Source of the DNA: Salinibacterium sp. ZJ70
GTDB lineage: Bacteria > Actinomycetota > Actinomycetes > Actinomycetales > Microbacteriaceae
Assembly (NCBI RefSeq): GCF_011751865.2
Contig: NZ_CP061770.1
Location: forward strand, 1,612,001-1,676,000
Length of the DNA stretch: 64,000 nt
Direction: 5' to 3'
A program made the position numbers and the translations under genes. Below the pieces are notes generated by a model that saw only the letters and a list, made by a program, of their open reading frames with translations, searched no databases and was not told the origin of the DNA. This document shows positions 17,976-50,501 of this stretch, one piece after another. The first letter of the stretch is position 1, and each line of letters starts with the position of its first letter.

Positions 17976-18036
17976 CGCGCACCTGCTGGCCCGACCACAA
18001 GCTCTTGGCCCTAGCGCCACCGCTTCCACAGATTTG

Positions 18037-19650
18037 TCAACGTTTGGCCACGATTCCGGTTGCGCCAGCGATGAAGAGACCCAGGAAACTTGTCGCAGCG
18101 AGCTTGAGCCCTGCGAGCGACCACATCAGCCATGATGGGCTGCTCACGCGCCAAACATCCGCCTGCCCCAGGTCGACCGGCGCGAGGAGCACGTCGAGTG
18201 CATACAAGCCAGCATCGAAGACGGGGTACTCCGAGGGTTGCGGCGTCACCGTCGTATCCGCAACCAGAGTCTCCGTGCTCGTCCCGATCACTGCGACCTG
18301 GAGGCCGACCTCGACCTCTAGGCTGCCGGGGATGAACGACGCCTGATTCAGCAACACCAGCACCCAGATCGCGACCCAGACTCCGAACGTCCACAGCAAC
18401 GCGCGATGCGATCGATAGCCATGGCCGACCGTCCACTTCATGATCGGTCGATATATGGTTCGGCGGAACCAGTTTGGGTGGTCCTTCAATCGGCGGTCGG
18501 CGGCCTCGATCAGCAGTGTCCTGGCCGCCGCGTCGTCCCCTTCAGCACCAAGAGCATTCGCGAATGCAACCCAGGCCCCGGGGAGCGCACGACTTGAGGC
18601 GAGCCATTCCGACGCAACCCTCGACGAGTCCTTGCCGCGCGGCGACCACTCGATTCGGTCGACACTCAAGGAAGTCGTCGCACTCAAGTCCGGCCGAGCC
18701 GATAGCTCAGCGTTGCTGGAGAGGGTCAGTTCCCCGACGCGGGCGCCAGTCAGATTGAATGAGCCTCGAATCTGAGTGCAGTCGGCGATGCGGAACAGAT
18801 CGACACTCGCTCGTTGGGCATAGAGCACCGAGCGCGAGCCAAGTTCGGGAGGCCCCAGTTTCACGGATCCGTCTATGACAACGCTCTTGAGCCGTGCACC
18901 CTCGACATCGAAAAGTGACGTTTTCATTCCCCCGCAGAACAGGTCGTTCCGCACAGTTGTGCCCGTCAGGAAGACTCGGCGAGCTTCGAGTGAATCCAGC
19001 TTCATCTGGCCATCCACAACGGCCCCCCGGATAGCGATTTCCTTCGCAACCTCTGTCTCACGCATGTCGAGAATGCCGTGGACCCGAGCACTGTCTGCAT
19101 TGACGGCACCCTCGATAGTCGAATCGTGAATCTGGAGGGTCCCGCCGACGCCGACGTTGACGAGGGACAGCCCGGTGCGGACCTTCACGTCGATGATGTG
19201 AAGGTCACTTCCGATGTCGCAGTGATCGAATAGGGCGTCTCTCATCCAGGCATCCGGGACATCTCGGGGCGAGATTTCCCCTCCATGAATCCACAAGCGG
19301 AACATCCGCGCACCAACGAAACGGATGCCGCCCTGCATGCGACAGTGGAGGAAGAACGCACCATCGTCGGACTCGAACCCCGCGAAGTCGCAAAAACCAC
19401 TGAAGGTCACGTCGTCGAACCAAATCCCGCATGGGACCTTGACTCCTCGGAAGTCCAGCTCTCCGACAACATCGACGTGGAGCAGCCGGAAGCCTGCCGG
19501 GTCCGGGAGTCCATCGAACTCGAGGACGGCTCGGCGGAGAGCCTCCGCATCAATTATTCGCCGCGCCTCGGCTGATCCGACAACCGTTCCTTGTCGAATT
19601 GCCTCATGGATCTCACTTTCGGTAATCGGCGAGACTGAATTGGTTGCCAT
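18037..19650 (-). CDS. Pentapeptide-like beta-helix protein with C-terminal membrane domain
   Basis: The 537-residue protein has an N-terminal half (about residues 50-330) of repeated strands such as LDFRGVKV, FDDVTFSG and RVHGILDMRETEV, like pentapeptide-repeat right-handed beta-helices. The C-terminal third has at least two membrane helices, near WTFGVWVAIWVLVLLNQASF and the final WLMWSLAGLKLAATSFLGLF. Such proteins are sometimes labelled membrane-associated oxidoreductase in actinobacterial databases, with no biochemical support. Codon use looks less GC-rich than the neighbours, suggesting acquisition. ATG at 19650 has no obvious ribosome site. Function unknown. Confidence 0.7.
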   Translation of the reverse strand: MATNSVSPITESEIHEAIRQGTVVGSAEARRIIDAEALRRAVLEFDGLPDPAGFRLLHVDVVGELDFRGVKVPCGIWFDDVTFSGFCDFAGFESDDGAFFLHCRMQGGIRFVGARMFRLWIHGGEISPRDVPDAWMRDALFDHCDIGSDLHIIDVKVRTGLSLVNVGVGGTLQIHDSTIEGAVNADSARVHGILDMRETEVAKEIAIRGAVVDGQMKLDSLEARRVFLTGTTVRNDLFCGGMKTSLFDVEGARLKSVVIDGSVKLGPPELGSRSVLYAQRASVDLFRIADCTQIRGSFNLTGARVGELTLSSNAELSARPDLSATTSLSVDRIEWSPRGKDSSRVASEWLASSRALPGAWVAFANALGAEGDDAAARTLLIEAADRRLKDHPNWFRRTIYRPIMKWTVGHGYRSHRALLWTFGVWVAIWVLVLLNQASFIPGSLEVEVGLQVAVIGTSTETLVADTTVTPQPSEYPVFDAGLYALDVLLAPVDLGQADVWRVSSPSWLMWSLAGLKLAATSFLGLFIAGATGIVAKR

Positions 19651-19660
19651 GTCAGTGACA

Positions 19661-20071
19661 CTAGGAGTTCTCAGTAGTTGCGGTCATGCCCCTACTTAGG
19701 GGGCCTACCAACCGACTCGCTGGATGCAGAACACCGAGGGGCGCGCGATCATGAGCCTCGGATTCGCCCTCGAGCGTCGGCGAAGCCCTCGACCACGGAG
19801 CGCCGACTGCACGGACGGTTTCCCGCTCGGCGACCCCATGGCGAGCGTGGTTGACCGATACTCGCGTGTGTCCAGCGGGCAGGGTCAACCAGGCAGATGC
19901 GGTCGCCCAAAGATCTGTAGCTGTCCATCCCGTCCGGTCCGAGATGAACCAACCGAGATCAGTGGCGACTCCTTCGGATCCTGAGAACAAGAACACCTCG
20001 CGACCGAACCGGTAGCGAGCAATCACTTCGCCGTCGCGAAGTTCTGTACTCTCTGTGAACTCAGTCGTCAC
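19661..20071 (-). CDS. Doubtful hypothetical protein in island
   Basis: A 136-residue reading from GTG at 20071. The first 70 residues, such as EVIARYRFGREVFLFSGSEG and TDLGWFISDRTGWT, look protein-like with plausible strand patterns; the rest is compositionally random. It may be the remnant of a longer gene. No family recognised, and no ribosome site seen. Directly downstream on the same strand is the pentapeptide-like gene. Confidence 0.3.
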   Translation of the reverse strand: MTTEFTESTELRDGEVIARYRFGREVFLFSGSEGVATDLGWFISDRTGWTATDLWATASAWLTLPAGHTRVSVNHARHGVAERETVRAVGAPWSRASPTLEGESEAHDRAPLGVLHPASRLVGPLSRGMTATTENS

Positions 20072-20074
20072 CCC

Positions 20075-20130
20075 GGGCGTTCGACTTCGCTGTGAGGCAA
20101 CGGCTCACCGAGTCGAAACGAGAGACGCCC
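20075..20130. repeat. Nested stem-loop in island
   Basis: Arms GGGCGT (20075-20080) and ACGCCC (20125-20130), then TTCGACT (20080-20086) and AGTCGAA (20111-20117), then GTGAG (20092-20096) and CTCAC (20104-20108) nest around the loop GCAACGG, giving a 56-nt three-part hairpin. It lies in an area with no convincing gene. It could be a mobile-element end, a structured RNA or a terminator. Confidence 0.4.
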
Positions 20131-20333
20131 GTGTGTCGCCGGGAGCTGCTGGGGGAGGGGGGCGTCCTGCGCTTGTCCCCGATTTGCGCTCGCTCGAAAT
20201 CAGATAGCGGGCGACCTGCAGCATGAGCCGGGGTGAAGGGCTGCGACTGCTTCCAACGACCAAGCTCCTGTGGTGCCACCGTCGCCAGAGGCTTGGTGCG
20301 CGCGCTCCATTTCGCTGGATCGCTAACCACGGG

Positions 20334-20644
20334 TTAGTAGACGTCCCTGGGCTCCTCTATTGGAGCCCCGCTGGCCTCTGCGCGCTCGAACGCCAAGTTG
20401 TCCAAGCTCGAACTCTGTTGGTAGAGCGCCTCGCCCAGTTCATAGTAAAACGTCTCCGACCTCGGCCGAACGTTGAGACCTCATGCAGCGCCGCGGGGTC
20501 CTGCGTCACGACGTACGTAATCGCGATGTCGCCGCGCGCGGTCTACGCAACCAACTCGGCGAGAAGACCAGCGACCTTGGATACGGCGCGTTGCACCTTC
20601 AGTTCGGGCGATGGGCGGAAACTCGTTCCCGAGACGGGCTTCAC
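20334..20644 (-). pseudogene. Decayed small gene with in-frame stop and frameshift
   Basis: A GTG at 20644 sits six bases behind GGAGG (20651-20655 in plus coordinates). Translation gives VKPVSGTSFRPSPELKVQRA and more, then hits TAG at 20543-20545 after 33 codons. The same frame continues with TARGDIAITYVVTQDPAALH, then must shift frame to read SETFYYELGEALYQQSSSLD and on to a TAA at 20334-20336. The rejoined protein would be about 103 residues. The family is not recognised. Good ribosome site plus two disabling changes mark it as a recently lost gene. Confidence 0.5.
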
Positions 20645-20747
20645 GCCGAACCTCCGCGAATCGCGACATGAGCATTGCCCTGAGAGCTATTCGAGCATTT
20701 TCACTTCTGGATTATCCCGCGGGACACCCAAAACTCCCCGGAATCAG

Positions 20748-20824
20748 TGGTAGGGCGGACGGGACTTGAACCCGTGACCGACGGATTATGAGTCCGCTGC
20801 TCTAACCGGCTGAGCTACCGCCCC
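20748..20824 (-). tRNA. tRNA-Met (CAT anticodon), CCA encoded
   Basis: The minus strand from 20824 forms a cloverleaf: acceptor GGGGCGG with CCGCCCT (a G-U at the first pair), D arm GCTC, anticodon stem CGGAC with loop TCATAAT region giving CAT, T arm ACGGG-TTCAAGT-CCCGT. Discriminator A at 20751 and an encoded CCA at 20748-20750. The body resembles elongator tRNA-Met of actinobacteria; tRNA-Ile2 (lysidine) is the alternative for a CAT anticodon. Its 3' end faces the island at 17.9-20.7 kb. Confidence 0.93.
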
Positions 20825-44638: not shown

Positions 44639-46042
44639 TCAGGCGACGGAGTCTTCCAGGTTCTCCCGGTGAGACATCCCCATCCCGACCGCAGGCCGGC
44701 CGAGTGCCCGGTAGTCCCAGCCGGCTGCCTGATAGCGGGACGCGTCGAGCACATTGCGCGCGTCGAGGATCCGACGGCTCGCGACGAGCGCGCCCATATC
44801 GGCGGGGTCGGCGAACCGGAACTCATCCCACTCCGTGAGAAGGGCCACGACATCGGCACCCGTGACGGCTTCCGCGAACGACGACACGTAGTCGAGATCC
44901 GGGTAGACGCGGTGCGCATTCGCCGTCGCCTCGGGGTCGTAGACGACGACCTCGGCTCCTTCGAGATAGAGCAGCCGGGCGACGTCGAGAGCCGGGGCGT
45001 CGCGCACATCGTCGGAATTGGGCTTGAACGCCGCACCGAGCGCTGCCACGCGGCACCCAGCGAGGTCACCGCCCGCGAGCTCGCGGATCACGTCGACGGC
45101 ACGCACCCGGCGGCGCAGGTTGATCTGGTCGATCTCGTCGAGGAAGCGCACCGCCTGCCCCGCACCCAGCTCCTCCGCCCGCGCTCGGAAGGCACGGATG
45201 TCCTTCGGCAGGCATCCGCCGCCGAACCCGAGTCCGGGCTTCAGGAAGCGGGATCCGATGCGGTCATCGAGTCCGAGCGCGCACGCGAGCGTCGTGACAT
45301 CCGCGCCCACGGTCTCGCACACCTCGGCCATCGCGTTGATGAACGAGATCTTGGTGGCGAGGAACGAGTTCGCGGCGACCTTCACGAGCTCCGCCGTCGC
45401 CATGTCGGCGACGACGAGCGGCGTGCCCGTGTCGAGGATCGGCGCATATACCTGACGCAGCATATGCTCGGCCCACGGGGTCTCCACCCCGAACACAAGT
45501 CGGTCCGGGTTGAGGGTGTCCTCGACCGCGAAGCCCTCGCGAAGGAACTCGGGGTTCCACGCGAGTTCGACCTCGTCACCCGCCGGCGAGAGCTCGCGCA
45601 CGAGCCCGGCGAGGCGGCTGGCCGTGCCGACAGGCACGGTCGATTTGCCGACGATGAGCGCGCGACGATCGATGCGCGCCGCGAGTCCGGTCGCCGCCGC
45701 ATCGACGAAGCGCATGTCGGCGCGGTTCGAGCCCGTCTGCTGCGGCGTGCCGACGCAGATGAAGTGGACATCCCCGAACGCGGCGACCGCATCGAGGTCG
45801 GTCGTGAATCTCAGCCGGCCAGACGCGAGCGCCGCCTCGAGCTGCTCCGGAAGCCCGGGCTCGAAGAACGGAACGCGCCCGGCCGAGAGGGACGCGATCT
45901 TGTCGGGGTCGACATCGAAGCCGAGCACCTCGAATCCGAGTGCGGCCATACAGACGGCATGGGTGGCGCCGAGGTACCCCGTCCCGATCACAGTGATCCG
46001 GGGTGCTTCGGAGGTGGAGCCTTGCTGATCCTGGTACGACAC
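44639..46042 (-). CDS. UDP-glucose/GDP-mannose-type 6-dehydrogenase
   Basis: The 467-residue enzyme oxidises a nucleotide-sugar to the uronate using NAD. It has the Rossmann motif VIGTGYLGATHAVCMAALG, and the central AELVKVAANSFLATKISFIN. The catalytic cysteine is C277 in GFGGGCLPKDIRAF. Sequence alone does not separate UDP-glucose from GDP-mannose specificity. GTG at 46042 lies six bases behind GGAGG, which fixes the start. It follows the GT2 and beta-helix genes and would supply their uronic-acid donor. Confidence 0.93.
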   Translation of the reverse strand: MSYQDQQGSTSEAPRITVIGTGYLGATHAVCMAALGFEVLGFDVDPDKIASLSAGRVPFFEPGLPEQLEAALASGRLRFTTDLDAVAAFGDVHFICVGTPQQTGSNRADMRFVDAAATGLAARIDRRALIVGKSTVPVGTASRLAGLVRELSPAGDEVELAWNPEFLREGFAVEDTLNPDRLVFGVETPWAEHMLRQVYAPILDTGTPLVVADMATAELVKVAANSFLATKISFINAMAEVCETVGADVTTLACALGLDDRIGSRFLKPGLGFGGGCLPKDIRAFRARAEELGAGQAVRFLDEIDQINLRRRVRAVDVIRELAGGDLAGCRVAALGAAFKPNSDDVRDAPALDVARLLYLEGAEVVVYDPEATANAHRVYPDLDYVSSFAEAVTGADVVALLTEWDEFRFADPADMGALVASRRILDARNVLDASRYQAAGWDYRALGRPAVGMGMSHRENLEDSVA

Positions 46043-46134
46043 CGGGAACCTCCAGAGTGTGCGTTGATGGTGGGGGGATGGTGCGGTTTCTTCTGGTGCA
46101 GCGGGACGCGTGATCGGGAGCGCGCCCTGCCTCC

Positions 46135-47238
46135 TCAGCCTCGACAGCTCACATTGCTGAACCCTTCGCCGGCGTCGGAGACCTGGTTGTCGCACGCGAC
46201 GACGTTGTCGTTGACCGGCGTGAGAGAGAACCCGAATCCGGGTCCGCCCACGACGGCGATGTTCGACCGGAACGTGTTTCCGGTCCCCCATCCGCCGTCG
46301 CCGATCTCATGCGTCTGGAAGCCATCGAGAGGCGAGTTCTCGCCCGTGTTGCCCTCGATGATCCAGTCGTTTCCCTTCACATCCACCCAGCTGTCGGCTG
46401 CGACGATGCGGGAGCCGTCGAATGTGTTGCCGCGGATGACACCCCCTGTCGTGCCCTCCTTGACGTCGATCGCCTCAGAGGTCGTGCCGTGGATGTAGTT
46501 GCCTTCGACGAGATTGCGATCCGAGCGATCCGGCTCGCAGTCGGTGATCGTGCACCAGTTGCTGTCGGCTGAGCCGATGTAGACCCCTTCGCCGAACTTC
46601 TCGCGGCGCAGACCCGTGTCGCTGATGTCGTTGCCCACGACCCGGTTGTCGGTGGAGTGTCCGCGGAGGTGGATCGCCTCGTCGCCGATGCTGAACACGG
46701 TGAGGCCCTGGATCGTGGAGCCGACAGTGCCATCCGCCATCACGCCCTTCTGCCCGTTGGTGACGGTGAAGCCCGCCAGGTGCCAGTACTGCGCCCCATC
46801 GAGGTGGAAGACATACCCGCCTTTCACTCCCCCGCCGTCGAGCACGGCTTCCCTGGGGCCGCACAGCGTGACGAGTTCGTCGGACGTGCCGGAGGTCGAG
46901 GCGACGAACTCGCCTTCGTACACTCCCGGCTGCATCACGATGACATCTCCGGGCGCTGCGGAGGCGAGCGCGGATGCGAGCTCGTCGGCGCCCGACACTG
47001 TCTGAGTGGCGTCCGGACAGCCCTCGACATCGACCGCCGACTCGGGCGCGTCCGCTTGCTGGGTCGCGGTCGGACTCGGCGTGTCGGTGCGCCCGGGAAT
47101 GCTGGTGGGAGCGCTCTGCGGGTTCGCGGGCGAGGCGAGCAGCGCGGCGCCTGTCCAGATGAGCGCCACGAACACACCTCCCGCGACGAACGAGAGCGCC
47201 GCGAGAAGCCACGGACGGGCGAGAAGCTCGGCGATCAT
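46135..47238 (-). CDS. Membrane-anchored right-handed beta-helix protein (short)
   Basis: The 367-residue protein has one N-terminal anchor (WLLAALSFVAGGVFVALIWT), a Pro/Thr/Ser linker (about residues 38-70) and a right-handed beta-helix from about 75 onward. Strand turns such as EAVLDGGGVKGGYVFHLDGA and GDEAIHLRGHSTDNRVVGND fit the parallel beta-helix (pectate lyase/epimerase-like) superfamily. Six cysteines may form disulfides. Catalysis on a polysaccharide (lyase or C5-epimerase) is possible but no catalytic set could be assigned. ATG overlaps the stop of the larger beta-helix gene (ATGA). Confidence 0.82.
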   Translation of the reverse strand: MIAELLARPWLLAALSFVAGGVFVALIWTGAALLASPANPQSAPTSIPGRTDTPSPTATQQADAPESAVDVEGCPDATQTVSGADELASALASAAPGDVIVMQPGVYEGEFVASTSGTSDELVTLCGPREAVLDGGGVKGGYVFHLDGAQYWHLAGFTVTNGQKGVMADGTVGSTIQGLTVFSIGDEAIHLRGHSTDNRVVGNDISDTGLRREKFGEGVYIGSADSNWCTITDCEPDRSDRNLVEGNYIHGTTSEAIDVKEGTTGGVIRGNTFDGSRIVAADSWVDVKGNDWIIEGNTGENSPLDGFQTHEIGDGGWGTGNTFRSNIAVVGGPGFGFSLTPVNDNVVACDNQVSDAGEGFSNVSCRG

Positions 47239-49175
47239 GCCGCCCGCCCCGATTCTGCGGTCGAGACCTGCTGCACTGTCGACACCGGCTCGCTCGACGT
47301 GATCTCCGCCGTCGACGCGCTCGTCGGCTCCAGAGGCGTCACGGGCTCACGACCGTAGTCGCGCGGATCCGCGATCCCTGCGGTGAGCGACGACAGCGGC
47401 GCATGCGAGCTGTAGGGGTGGGTCAGCGCCCGCCGCGGCTCACGTCGACGCAGCCCCGTGACGGCGGTGACCACGACGATCAGTCCGAGAACGATCCACA
47501 CGAGCGTGAGCGGCTGGAAGATGCCGCGCAGGATGACATCGAGCGGCTTGGTGCCCTGCCACGCCGTGATGTCGTTGCCCCGGATGACGGCATCGGACTC
47601 CGAACGAGCAGCATCGATCGCACTCGGGCCGCGCCCGGAGACTGTGTTGTTGCTGATCGTGACGGTTGCGAGATCCCGGATGATCGTCACTCCGTGGTTG
47701 CTGACATCGGTCACCGTGTTCCGGTCGATCGTTCCTGTGGCGTCGCGCAGGTAGATGCCGATCTCGCCTCCCGCGATGGAGTTCCCCTGCACGAGAGCGT
47801 CGCGGACGCCGTCGCGAAGCGCGATTCCCTGCTCCGCCGAGTTCTCCACGATGTTGTCGGTGATCGTGACGCCTTCGACGACGTCCGCAACGACGATGCC
47901 CATCGTGTGACCGTCCACCGTGTTGCCGTCGAGCACGAGATGTCGGCCCCCCACGGCCTCGATCCCGTAGCGACCGTTGCCGCGGACGAGGGAATCGTTC
48001 ACGGCGTTGTTGCCGTAGCTGCCGATCGGGGTGCCTGTGGCACTGGGGCCGCCCGCGAGCGGTCCCCCTTCGAGGGTGACGCCGTTGCGTCCGTTCGCCT
48101 CTGCCGTCAGTCGATCGACGATGACCCCCGTCGTGGCGCGCGCGAGTCGCAGACCGTCGACCCCGTTGCCGGAGGCGGTGCTGTTGTGCACCACGGTGTC
48201 CGTCACCCCGCGATGCAGCACAAGGCCATCCACGAGGTTGTCGGCGAAAGTGGAGTCGCGGATGTCGACGCCGGCCGCGCTCGTGATGAACATCCCGAAC
48301 GCATTCGCTCGGCTCTCGACATCGTCGATGTCGGCGGACACGAAGCTGTAGGCCCCGAGGTTCGGCGCGAGGTTGAGGGCCTCGGCCCCGCCCACGGGGA
48401 GGAGCTCCTGGCCGTAGACGGACGGCGCGGCGGGTTCAGCCGCCGCTGACTCGTCCCCGTCCTCGCTGAAGGTCTCAGGCGGCGCCGTTCCGGTCAGGGC
48501 GATGCCGCCTGTCGCGCCGGACCAGAATCCCAGGTCGTGGAAGCGCGCGTGGGAGATGGTCGCGTGGCCGCCTGTCACCCTCAGATAAGCCCGTCCGTCG
48601 GAGGTCTCCACATCGGGGGCGTTCGCGCCCGGGTCCCACCCGGACACCTCGACGGGCCGGTCGGCGGTGCCGATGATCTCAAGCCCGCCCCCGATGGTGA
48701 CGATCGACACGAAAGCGGAGGGGGAGCTCGCCAGCCGCAGCACGAGTCCGTCCTCCGAGGACAGGTTCAGGGTGGCCCCCTGCTCGACGACGATGTTCTC
48801 GCTGAGCAGGTAGGAGCCATCCGGCTGACGCACGAAGGTGCTGGGCGCGTACTCGAGCAGGTCGCCGAGCGTGTAGGGCGCGTCGCGCCGGATGAGGACG
48901 AGGGTGTACGTGCTGCCGGTCACGAGCCGATAGGGACGCCCCTGATTCGCGTTCGTCCACCCCGCTGCATTCGAGATCGACCGGACGTCGATGAGACGCC
49001 GGTCCTCGGCGGCCACGAGCAGCGACTCGAGAGCGGGATCCCCGGGATACGGCTCCCCCACGACGGGCACGTTCTCGGCCGGTTCGGCCGAGTGCGCCGC
49101 CTGGGGAAGCACGAGCGCTGCCGCGACGCCGGCGACGACAGCCGCACGCAGCACGATCCAACGGCGCGACATCAT
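47235..49175 (-). CDS. Secreted right-handed beta-helix protein with C-terminal anchor (long)
   Basis: The 646-residue protein has a signal peptide (cleavage likely after AAHSA near residue 28), a first domain of about 200 residues, and a long run of NosD/CASH-type beta-helix repeats from about residue 280 to 545 (for example GRHLVLDGNTVDGHTMGIVV and EGVTITDNIVENSAEQGIAL). A membrane helix follows (LTLVWIVLGLIVVVTAVTGL), then a Ser/Thr/Pro-rich cytoplasmic tail of about 70 residues. The repeat type occurs in AlgG mannuronan C5-epimerases. ATG at 49175 overlaps the GT2 stop (ATGA), so both are co-translated. Confidence 0.85.
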   Translation of the reverse strand: MMSRRWIVLRAAVVAGVAAALVLPQAAHSAEPAENVPVVGEPYPGDPALESLLVAAEDRRLIDVRSISNAAGWTNANQGRPYRLVTGSTYTLVLIRRDAPYTLGDLLEYAPSTFVRQPDGSYLLSENIVVEQGATLNLSSEDGLVLRLASSPSAFVSIVTIGGGLEIIGTADRPVEVSGWDPGANAPDVETSDGRAYLRVTGGHATISHARFHDLGFWSGATGGIALTGTAPPETFSEDGDESAAAEPAAPSVYGQELLPVGGAEALNLAPNLGAYSFVSADIDDVESRANAFGMFITSAAGVDIRDSTFADNLVDGLVLHRGVTDTVVHNSTASGNGVDGLRLARATTGVIVDRLTAEANGRNGVTLEGGPLAGGPSATGTPIGSYGNNAVNDSLVRGNGRYGIEAVGGRHLVLDGNTVDGHTMGIVVADVVEGVTITDNIVENSAEQGIALRDGVRDALVQGNSIAGGEIGIYLRDATGTIDRNTVTDVSNHGVTIIRDLATVTISNNTVSGRGPSAIDAARSESDAVIRGNDITAWQGTKPLDVILRGIFQPLTLVWIVLGLIVVVTAVTGLRRREPRRALTHPYSSHAPLSSLTAGIADPRDYGREPVTPLEPTSASTAEITSSEPVSTVQQVSTAESGRAA

Positions 49176-50455
49176 GCCACCTCGGCGACGAGGGTGCGGG
49201 CGGTCTGCCCGTCCCCCCCGACGCGATCGGCGTGCCGTGTGAGCCATCCCTGCTTGTTCATGGTGACGAACGCGTAGGCCTTGAGCGGAAGCGCGATCAG
49301 GATGACCGTGAGGGTGACGACCGGCAGGATGACGATGTCGAGCGGTCGTCGCCGCAGATGCGAGATGCCTCGGATCCCGCGCCCGATGAAGAGCCACGCC
49401 ACGACGGCCCAGATTCCGACCGTCGTGAGCTCCAGCCGACTGAAGATGATGTATCCGACCGTGAGACCCATCGTGACGGGGGTGAGCAGGATCTGGAGAA
49501 CGGTGATCTTGGTCACGAACGGCACCCGCCACAGCCAGCCCTTGGCGATCGCCGTGAGGTAGGTGCGGTACGAGTTCCGGCTCCAGCGCACACGCTGCTT
49601 CACGAAGGCGCGGAAGCCCGACGGGAACATCGACAGGGCCCGCGCGGAGCGCTGGTGCACCGTCTGGTAGCCGGAGGCGAGCACGAGCCACGTGAGGCGA
49701 CCGTCATCGCCGGAGATGCACCGTCGACCGAGGAAGAACTCGTTCTCGAGGTTGTCGAGCACCGGCAGCACCGCGTCACGCCGGTAGACGGCCGTGCGAC
49801 CGGAGATGCAGGCCACGGCGCCTTTGCTGCCCATCGCGGGCACGTAGTCGTAGTAGCGCAGGTCGACGAGCCAGTCGGCAACCATGCGCCAGATGCTCGT
49901 GTGCCGCTGGTACACGTTCTGCTGTGTGCTCACCCCGCCGACGCGGGGGTCCGCGAACGGCATCTGGACGTTCTCGAGCAGCCCGGGGGTCCATGAGGTG
50001 TCCGAGTCGGTGAGCACGAGGATCTCACTCGTCGCAAGCCGGATGCCCGCCCCGAGCGCCGAGCGCTTGCCCGCGTGGTGGAAGAGGATCGGCCGGATTC
50101 GGTCGTCGCCGAGCGCCACGATCCGGTCGTACGCGTCGAGGTCGGCGACGTCGAGCACGATGATGATCTCCGTCGGATTCTGCTCGCGCCACGTCTCCAG
50201 GCATCGCATGAGGATGTCCGGATCCTCATGGAAGGACGGCACCACGACCGAGGTCGTGGTCTGGAACTCGCTCACGATGGCCGTCGTTCGCGCCGAGAGG
50301 ATCACGCGGTACAGCCAGAGCGCCCACACGATCGTGCCCGCGATCGCGAGCGGGAAGTACGGAGCGAGCGTGGCGACGAGGTCGCCCAGATACGACCAGC
50401 TGAACTGGATCTCATCGGTCCAGGCGGCGGGTGCGGAGACGGGGAGATGGAGCAT
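49172..50455 (-). CDS. Processive GT2 glycosyltransferase (polysaccharide synthase type)
   Basis: The 427-residue membrane enzyme has one or two N-terminal helices, a GT-A catalytic domain and at least three C-terminal helices. Key residues are the D150-S-D152 (DxD) motif and Q287-R-V-R-W291, the QxxRW that marks processive synthases such as cellulose, hyaluronan and alginate (Alg8) synthases. There is no PilZ domain. GAGGAG lies five bases before the ATG. First gene of a four-gene cluster with two beta-helix proteins and a sugar dehydrogenase; it would polymerise and export a uronate-containing glycan. Polymer identity is unknown. Confidence 0.9.
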   Translation of the reverse strand: MLHLPVSAPAAWTDEIQFSWSYLGDLVATLAPYFPLAIAGTIVWALWLYRVILSARTTAIVSEFQTTTSVVVPSFHEDPDILMRCLETWREQNPTEIIIVLDVADLDAYDRIVALGDDRIRPILFHHAGKRSALGAGIRLATSEILVLTDSDTSWTPGLLENVQMPFADPRVGGVSTQQNVYQRHTSIWRMVADWLVDLRYYDYVPAMGSKGAVACISGRTAVYRRDAVLPVLDNLENEFFLGRRCISGDDGRLTWLVLASGYQTVHQRSARALSMFPSGFRAFVKQRVRWSRNSYRTYLTAIAKGWLWRVPFVTKITVLQILLTPVTMGLTVGYIIFSRLELTTVGIWAVVAWLFIGRGIRGISHLRRRPLDIVILPVVTLTVILIALPLKAYAFVTMNKQGWLTRHADRVGGDGQTARTLVAEVA

Positions 50456-50478
50456 CGGAACTCCTCGGGGGGAAGGGG

Positions 50479-50501
50479 TGTCGGTTGACCGTCAACCGAC
50501 A
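50479..50501. promoter_or_regulatory. Palindromic operator candidate ahead of the polysaccharide cluster
   Basis: TGTCGGTTGA (50479-50488) and TCAACCGACA (50492-50501) are perfect 10-bp arms around CCG. The element ends 23 bp upstream of the GT2 start. The symmetry is that of a dimeric repressor site (TetR, GntR or LacI type); as RNA it would form a hairpin just above the ribosome site. Confidence 0.6.

Follow-up and report, generated by a model that had tools for sequence, protein, structure and literature searches.

A conserved four-gene cluster of Microbacteriaceae with a predicted hyaluronan-class synthase, two membrane-anchored beta-helix proteins and a nucleotide-sugar dehydrogenase

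Which polymer would be made, and how would it be modified, by a glycosyltransferase family 2 (GT2) synthase, two right-handed beta-helix proteins (BH1 and BH2) and a nucleotide-sugar 6-dehydrogenase whose genes lie side by side in an actinobacterium? The question is raised by a block at positions 44639-50501 of a 64,000-nucleotide stretch of Salinibacterium sp. ZJ70 (NZ_CP061770.1, positions 1,612,001 to 1,676,000; hereafter the window), in a genome of 2.84 Mb in one contig. An earlier note, made from the sequence alone, had read this block as an alginate-like cluster with the Alg8, AlgG and AlgD enzyme types. The overall design is retained in our analysis, but the alginate assignment is not borne out: the dehydrogenase is of the UDP-glucose type, and the closest relatives of the synthase are hyaluronan synthases and NodC. 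With slightly better than even confidence, we propose a compact synthase-dependent exopolysaccharide system, in which an AlgG-like epimerase and a PsAly-like lyase would act, outside the membrane, on a glucuronate-containing polymer.

Gene borders and conservation of the cluster

The block is confirmed with corrected borders; its genes run along the minus strand in the order GT2, BH1, BH2 and dehydrogenase (Table 1). The 818-residue open reading frame (ORF) of BH1 begins too early, the corrected border being 47235-49175, and the 550-residue ORF of the dehydrogenase is too long, its corrected start being a GTG behind GGAGG. An ATGA overlap is present at both the GT2/BH1 and the BH1/BH2 junctions, which bears out the suggestion that the beta-helix genes are translationally coupled to the synthase; a gap of 92 bases separates BH2 from the start of the dehydrogenase.

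The cluster is real and conserved. In a family set of 199 Microbacteriaceae genomes, matches were counted above 580 bits for GT2, a cut-off placed at this gap because the next match scores 236 bits, and at E values of at most 1e-12 for BH1 and 1e-15 for BH2. The 20 genomes that carry the GT2 orthologue are exactly those that carry BH1, and BH2 is found in all of these and in 7 others. The chance that two random sets of 20 among 199 would be identical is 7e-28, a figure which ignores the relatedness of the genomes. Likewise, among 60 relatives, GT2 (at least 58% identity), BH1 (E value 1e-24 or better) and BH2 coincide in 7 genomes, and a further 2 have BH2; weaker BH1 matches (E value 9e-7 and above), which bring the genomes matching at E 0.001 to 12 of the 60, were not counted as BH1.

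Mapping of 22 clusters, including that of the window, placed BH2 in 20, a UDP-glucose dehydrogenase gene (UGD) within the fetched stretch in 15, and the exact gene order in 12. The hosts include Microbacterium saccharophilum, Cryobacterium levicorallinum, a Naasia sp. and a Blastococcus metagenome-assembled genome, and one locus (L068) carries two clusters in tandem. The 22 do not include loci with BH2 or remnants lacking both GT2 and BH1 (L052, L053, L056, L058, L059 and L061), AlgG-type loci that were treated apart (L096 and L099-L102), or those of the 20 family genomes with the cluster for which no stretch was fetched (G101, G123, G184, G197, G202, G215 and G226).

The encoded proteins and their deeper relatives

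The synthase is assigned to Pfam PF13641, and its best match among solved structures is to hyaluronan synthases (E value 2.5e-20 with the single sequence). A profile of 11 orthologues strengthens this match (E value 3.7e-27), with cellulose synthase reaching only 0.07. Both the DSD and the QRVRW motifs, the former being the DxD reported in the earlier note, are invariant in all 11 aligned synthases. The NCBIfam NodC model gives 137 bits, below its equivalog cut-off of 550. By its nearest relatives and motifs the enzyme is predicted to belong to the NodC/hyaluronan synthase class, in a comparison that did not directly include Alg8 sequences. No second GT2 was found in the genome at an E value of 1e-40.

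The dehydrogenase scores 410.5 bits with TIGR03026 (cut-off 189.8) and 367 with the TuaD equivalog (cut-off 700). Its nearest structure is the UDP-glucose dehydrogenase 4a7p (337 bits; E value 1.7e-99), as against 179.5 bits for the GDP-mannose dehydrogenase 1mfz; on these scores it is predicted to be a nucleotide-sugar 6-dehydrogenase of the UDP-glucose type, and its identification as AlgD was rejected. Two other PF03721 proteins of the genome, at 126 and 110 bits, exceed the cut-off, and one further weak match lies below it. Where the cluster's enzyme has GGGCLPKD, these two have GGHCIP, a motif that goes with N-acetyl-sugar enzymes.

The N-terminus of BH1 is hydrophobic and its C-terminus bears a hydrophobic helix, and BH2 has such a helix at its N-terminus, in agreement with the membrane anchoring suggested for both. 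The predicted fold of BH1 is that of AlgG, and the AlgG mannuronan C5-epimerase is among its nearest characterised relatives; absence of a fold from the fold lists is not taken to exclude it. In the best profile alignment, His321 of BH1 sits on the proton-abstracting His of AlgG, the motif HR.V is present in all 120 BH1 homologues listed, and a row of invariant charged groove residues is kept. A NosD-type adhesin as the preferred interpretation, which would have told against the earlier note, was rejected, AlgG standing well above NosD among the matches of BH1.

BH2 matches PsAly (PDB: 6kfn) by both sequence and fold. The catalytic residues Tyr184 and Lys221 of PsAly, together with five other completely conserved residues, are all present in the BH2 alignment (7 of 7), and the matching columns are invariant in 35 aligned BH2 rows. 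Ala and Asn replace Asp188 and Lys191, which PsAly needs for full activity, and this change is also invariant. Both beta-helix proteins had been regarded as AlgG type; for BH1 this stands as to fold and one catalytic His, but not as to the DPHD motif or the AlgG model (see below), and for BH2 it was rejected in favour of the PsAly type.

Genes resembling BH2 also occur in other settings. Eight, seven and five matches are present in genomes G163, G215 and G101, respectively. In one genome (G029, locus L052) a BH2-type lyase gene lies beside a different polysaccharide cluster, with a polysaccharide export-type protein, a pyruvyl transferase and two glycosyltransferases, and in Cryobacterium sp. 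PH29-G1 (L061) another lies beside proteins related to that cluster. Apparent remnants are seen in Cryobacterium sp. Y57 (L058), where a 53-residue GT2 match adjoins a BH2 of intact length, and in Cryobacterium sp. Y82 (L059), where short BH1 matches adjoin BH2.

At the level of the phylum (346 genomes), 4 genomes match the GT2 profile at an E value of 1e-100, the window's own included, and 12 match the AlgG model at 0.001, none over the cut-off and the window's genome not being one of them. The full cluster order recurs in L097, and GT2-BH1-BH2 in L098. In L096, AlgG-like and GT2 domains, with DPH present, share a single 814-residue frame; this alone is called a fusion, because the GT2 matches of L099, which adjoin an AlgG-like protein with DPH and had also been considered a fusion, fall in two frames. 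DPH is also present in L100, where no GT2 match was found within the 16-kb stretch, whereas in L101 a GT2 is accompanied by an AlgG-like protein that lacks DPH. Beside the AlgG-like genes of L096, L099, L100 and L101 are short nucleotide-sugar dehydrogenases (287-340 residues) in which the NAD-binding and central Pfam domains are matched and the C-terminal UDP-binding domain is not. That of L100 alone is nearest to GDP-mannose dehydrogenase (134 versus 103 bits); pooled as a profile, the four give a tie between GDP-mannose and UDP-glucose enzymes (203.1 versus 200.6). In the GT2 tree, a branch (98/95) sets apart the 16 synthases of the window type; those of L096 and L101 fall outside it, on long branches of unsure place.

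Proposed pathway and alternative explanations

Computation supports the conserved gene set, the predicted folds, the conservation of catalytic residues and the enzyme classes. Glucuronate is the best-supported monomer, but it is inferred, as are the epimerase activity, the substrate of the lyase and the following order of steps. The dehydrogenase would produce UDP-glucuronate, which the GT2 would polymerise, either alone or alternating with another UDP-sugar, while moving the chain through the membrane. Outside, the tethered BH1 would hold the emerging chain and probably invert C5 of some of the uronates, as AlgG does on mannuronan. Held at the membrane by its N-terminal helix, BH2 would cleave the beta-1,4-linked chain of uronates by beta-elimination, thereby setting the length of the chain or releasing it.

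Several observations weigh against this proposal, most of them concerning BH1. Of the DPHD motif, BH1 has kept the His alone, without the P and either D, and DPH was found in none of 44 aligned and none of 120 listed homologues. The AlgG model NF038177 gives 23 bits (cut-off 700), the alignment column at Arg345 of AlgG varies, and in a mixed alignment no His occupies the catalytic column in the divergent BH1 of L050, in L101, in L099_AlgG2 or in L102. An alignment with few AlgG sequences favoured a register one coil off, with the His unpaired. The lone His, the variable Arg345 column and the divergent relatives without the His would suit a BH1 that is a non-enzymatic tethered chain guide or synthase partner with an AlgG fold, with BH2 as the sole modifier of the same glucuronate polymer. 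According to parts of PMC4444821, AlgG and lyases belong to the alginate system and AlgG is itself part of the export complex, which would also fit such a role. The position of His321, the constant HR.V motif and the invariant charged groove residues argue for an enzyme, and we regard the chain-guide role as unlikely, although it deserves appreciable weight.

Also against the proposal, PsAly, the deposited relative of BH2, cleaves polymannuronate and not glucuronan. Since the nearest characterised relatives of both beta-helix proteins are mannuronan enzymes, and the short dehydrogenase of L100 leans toward GDP-mannose, a genuine alginate-like polymer might be envisaged, i.e., mannuronan from GDP-mannuronate or an unusual precursor, with BH1 as mannuronan C5-epimerase and BH2 as mannuronan lyase. 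That would be quite improbable given the UDP-glucose type of the cluster's dehydrogenase, the different motif in the genome's two other clear members of the dehydrogenase family, the hyaluronan-synthase-like GT2, the invariant change at the two PsAly residues required for full activity, and the tie obtained when the deeper dehydrogenases are pooled. Finally, 7 of the 22 mapped clusters lack UGD in the fetched stretch, and 7 of the 27 family genomes with BH2 hold it without the rest of the cluster. Together with the presence of up to eight BH2-like copies in one genome, this could be explained if the genes were neighbours without a common polymer, comprising a GT2 for a surface glycan, lyases that scavenge polyuronates from algae or plants, and a UDP-glucose dehydrogenase of general use. 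The identical GT2 and BH1 genome sets, the ATGA overlaps, the conserved order, the two clusters in tandem at L068 and the joining of AlgG-like and GT2 domains in L096 make this very improbable.

Comparison with known systems and additional features

Alg8, Alg44 and AlgL are parts of the Pseudomonas alginate system, which comprises AlgD, Alg8/Alg44, AlgG and the lyase AlgL. The cluster resembles this system in design, with a supplier of sugar acid, a membrane GT2, an AlgG-fold protein outside the membrane and a lyase of the same polymer, but lies outside it by its dehydrogenase and by the AlgG model. It differs in having a UDP-glucose type dehydrogenase, a GT2 of the hyaluronan synthase class, a beta-helix lyase of the PsAly type and a BH1 without DPHD. 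Alg44 was not seen beside the synthase, as had been noted before: a scan of the four proteins and of neighbouring ones, which did not extend to the remainder of the genome, matched no PilZ domain. PsAly, the polymannuronate endolyase of Paenibacillus sp. FPU-7, is the founder of family PL31; BH2 differs from it by the N-terminal membrane anchor, the setting in a synthesis operon and the Ala/Asn replacements. The hyaluronan synthase operon hasA-hasB pairs a GT2 with a UDP-glucose dehydrogenase, and this arrangement and the GT2 class, shared with NodC, are found here as well; the cluster differs by the addition of two enzyme-like beta-helix proteins and by its low score with the NodC model.

A second synthase cluster of the family (L062, L063 and L064, in G002, G001 and G031) consists of GT2, GH26 and UGD. 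Its GT2 (about 33% identity) and UGD likewise flank an extracytoplasmic-type carbohydrate enzyme, but this is a GH26 hydrolase where the present cluster has two beta-helix proteins. The GH26 protein looks membrane-anchored, and Pfam GH26 was matched in both of the middle proteins scanned.

The brown-algal alginate pathway, as described in parts of PMC8307928 and PMC11468063, also combines GT2s lacking homology to Alg8 (PMC11468063), AlgG-related epimerases and lyases; it differs in being eukaryotic and in its GDP-mannose dehydrogenase and PL41 lyases, the comparison being one of descriptions and not of sequences. In the same parts of these papers an actinobacterial donor is proposed, yet doubted for the dehydrogenase, whose actinobacterial origin is not strongly supported (PMC11468063), and alginate synthesis is not known in the Streptomyces that have PL41 homologues (PMC11468063). 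Alginate operons are largely in Pseudomonas according to part of a survey (PMC7112194). No earlier description of the cluster was found in the literature searched, with most subscription journals outside its reach. We tentatively suggest, as a possibility that is itself rather unlikely, that an AlgG-descended enzyme was retooled in actinobacteria to epimerise a glucuronate polymer, so that the secreted polysaccharide would contain iduronate and be trimmed by a PsAly-like lyase, and that the deeper loci, which combine a synthase with an AlgG-like protein retaining DPH and with a short, partly GDP-mannose-dehydrogenase-like enzyme, are living relatives of the actinobacterial kit proposed as donor to the brown algae. 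If the proposed pathway is true, the synthase-epimerase-lyase design of alginate would also exist in bacteria that lack an outer membrane, there with a different precursor and a different class of synthase. The actinobacterial loci with synthase, AlgG-like protein and dehydrogenase offer concrete sequences for testing the origin of the algal pathway and the nature of a uronan synthase other than Alg8, and they are also a source of candidate enzymes for producing epimerised glucuronate polymers.

Table 1. Positions of the cluster genes, an upstream palindrome and the short dehydrogenases of the deeper loci
Feature	Position	Strand	Remarks
GT2 polysaccharide synthase, predicted hyaluronan-synthase/NodC class, 427 aa	49172-50455	-	Pfam PF13641, NodC model, hyaluronan synthase structure match, DSD and QRVRW
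BH1, 646 aa: hydrophobic N-terminal segment, AlgG-related right-handed beta-helix, C-terminal membrane helix; candidate uronan C5-epimerase	47235-49175	-	
BH2, 367 aa: N-terminal membrane helix and PsAly-related beta-helix lyase domain with active-site set	46135-47238	-	
Nucleotide-sugar 6-dehydrogenase, predicted UDP-glucose type, 467 aa	44639-46042	-	TIGR03026, nearest structure 4a7p
Perfect 23-base palindrome TGTCGGTTGAC-G-GTCAACCGACA	50479-50501	.	23 nt before the GT2 start codon
Short nucleotide-sugar dehydrogenases beside AlgG-like genes	L096:9770-10690, L099:1165-2100, L100:5349-6209, L101:10464-11483		

The palindrome upstream of GT2 occurs once in the window, with none expected in 100 shuffles. 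It may be an operator, but its tie to the cluster is only a guess, because it did not turn up ahead of the GT2 gene in any of 10 relatives. A sigma-70 promoter scan gave 0 sites. Elsewhere in the window, the region 18037-20753 holds two ORFs with no Pfam match and a further ORF of 537 residues with only a weak, below-cut-off match to pentapeptide repeats; this is a stretch of lower G+C content (0.61 for 18001-20000) adjoining a tRNA-Met.
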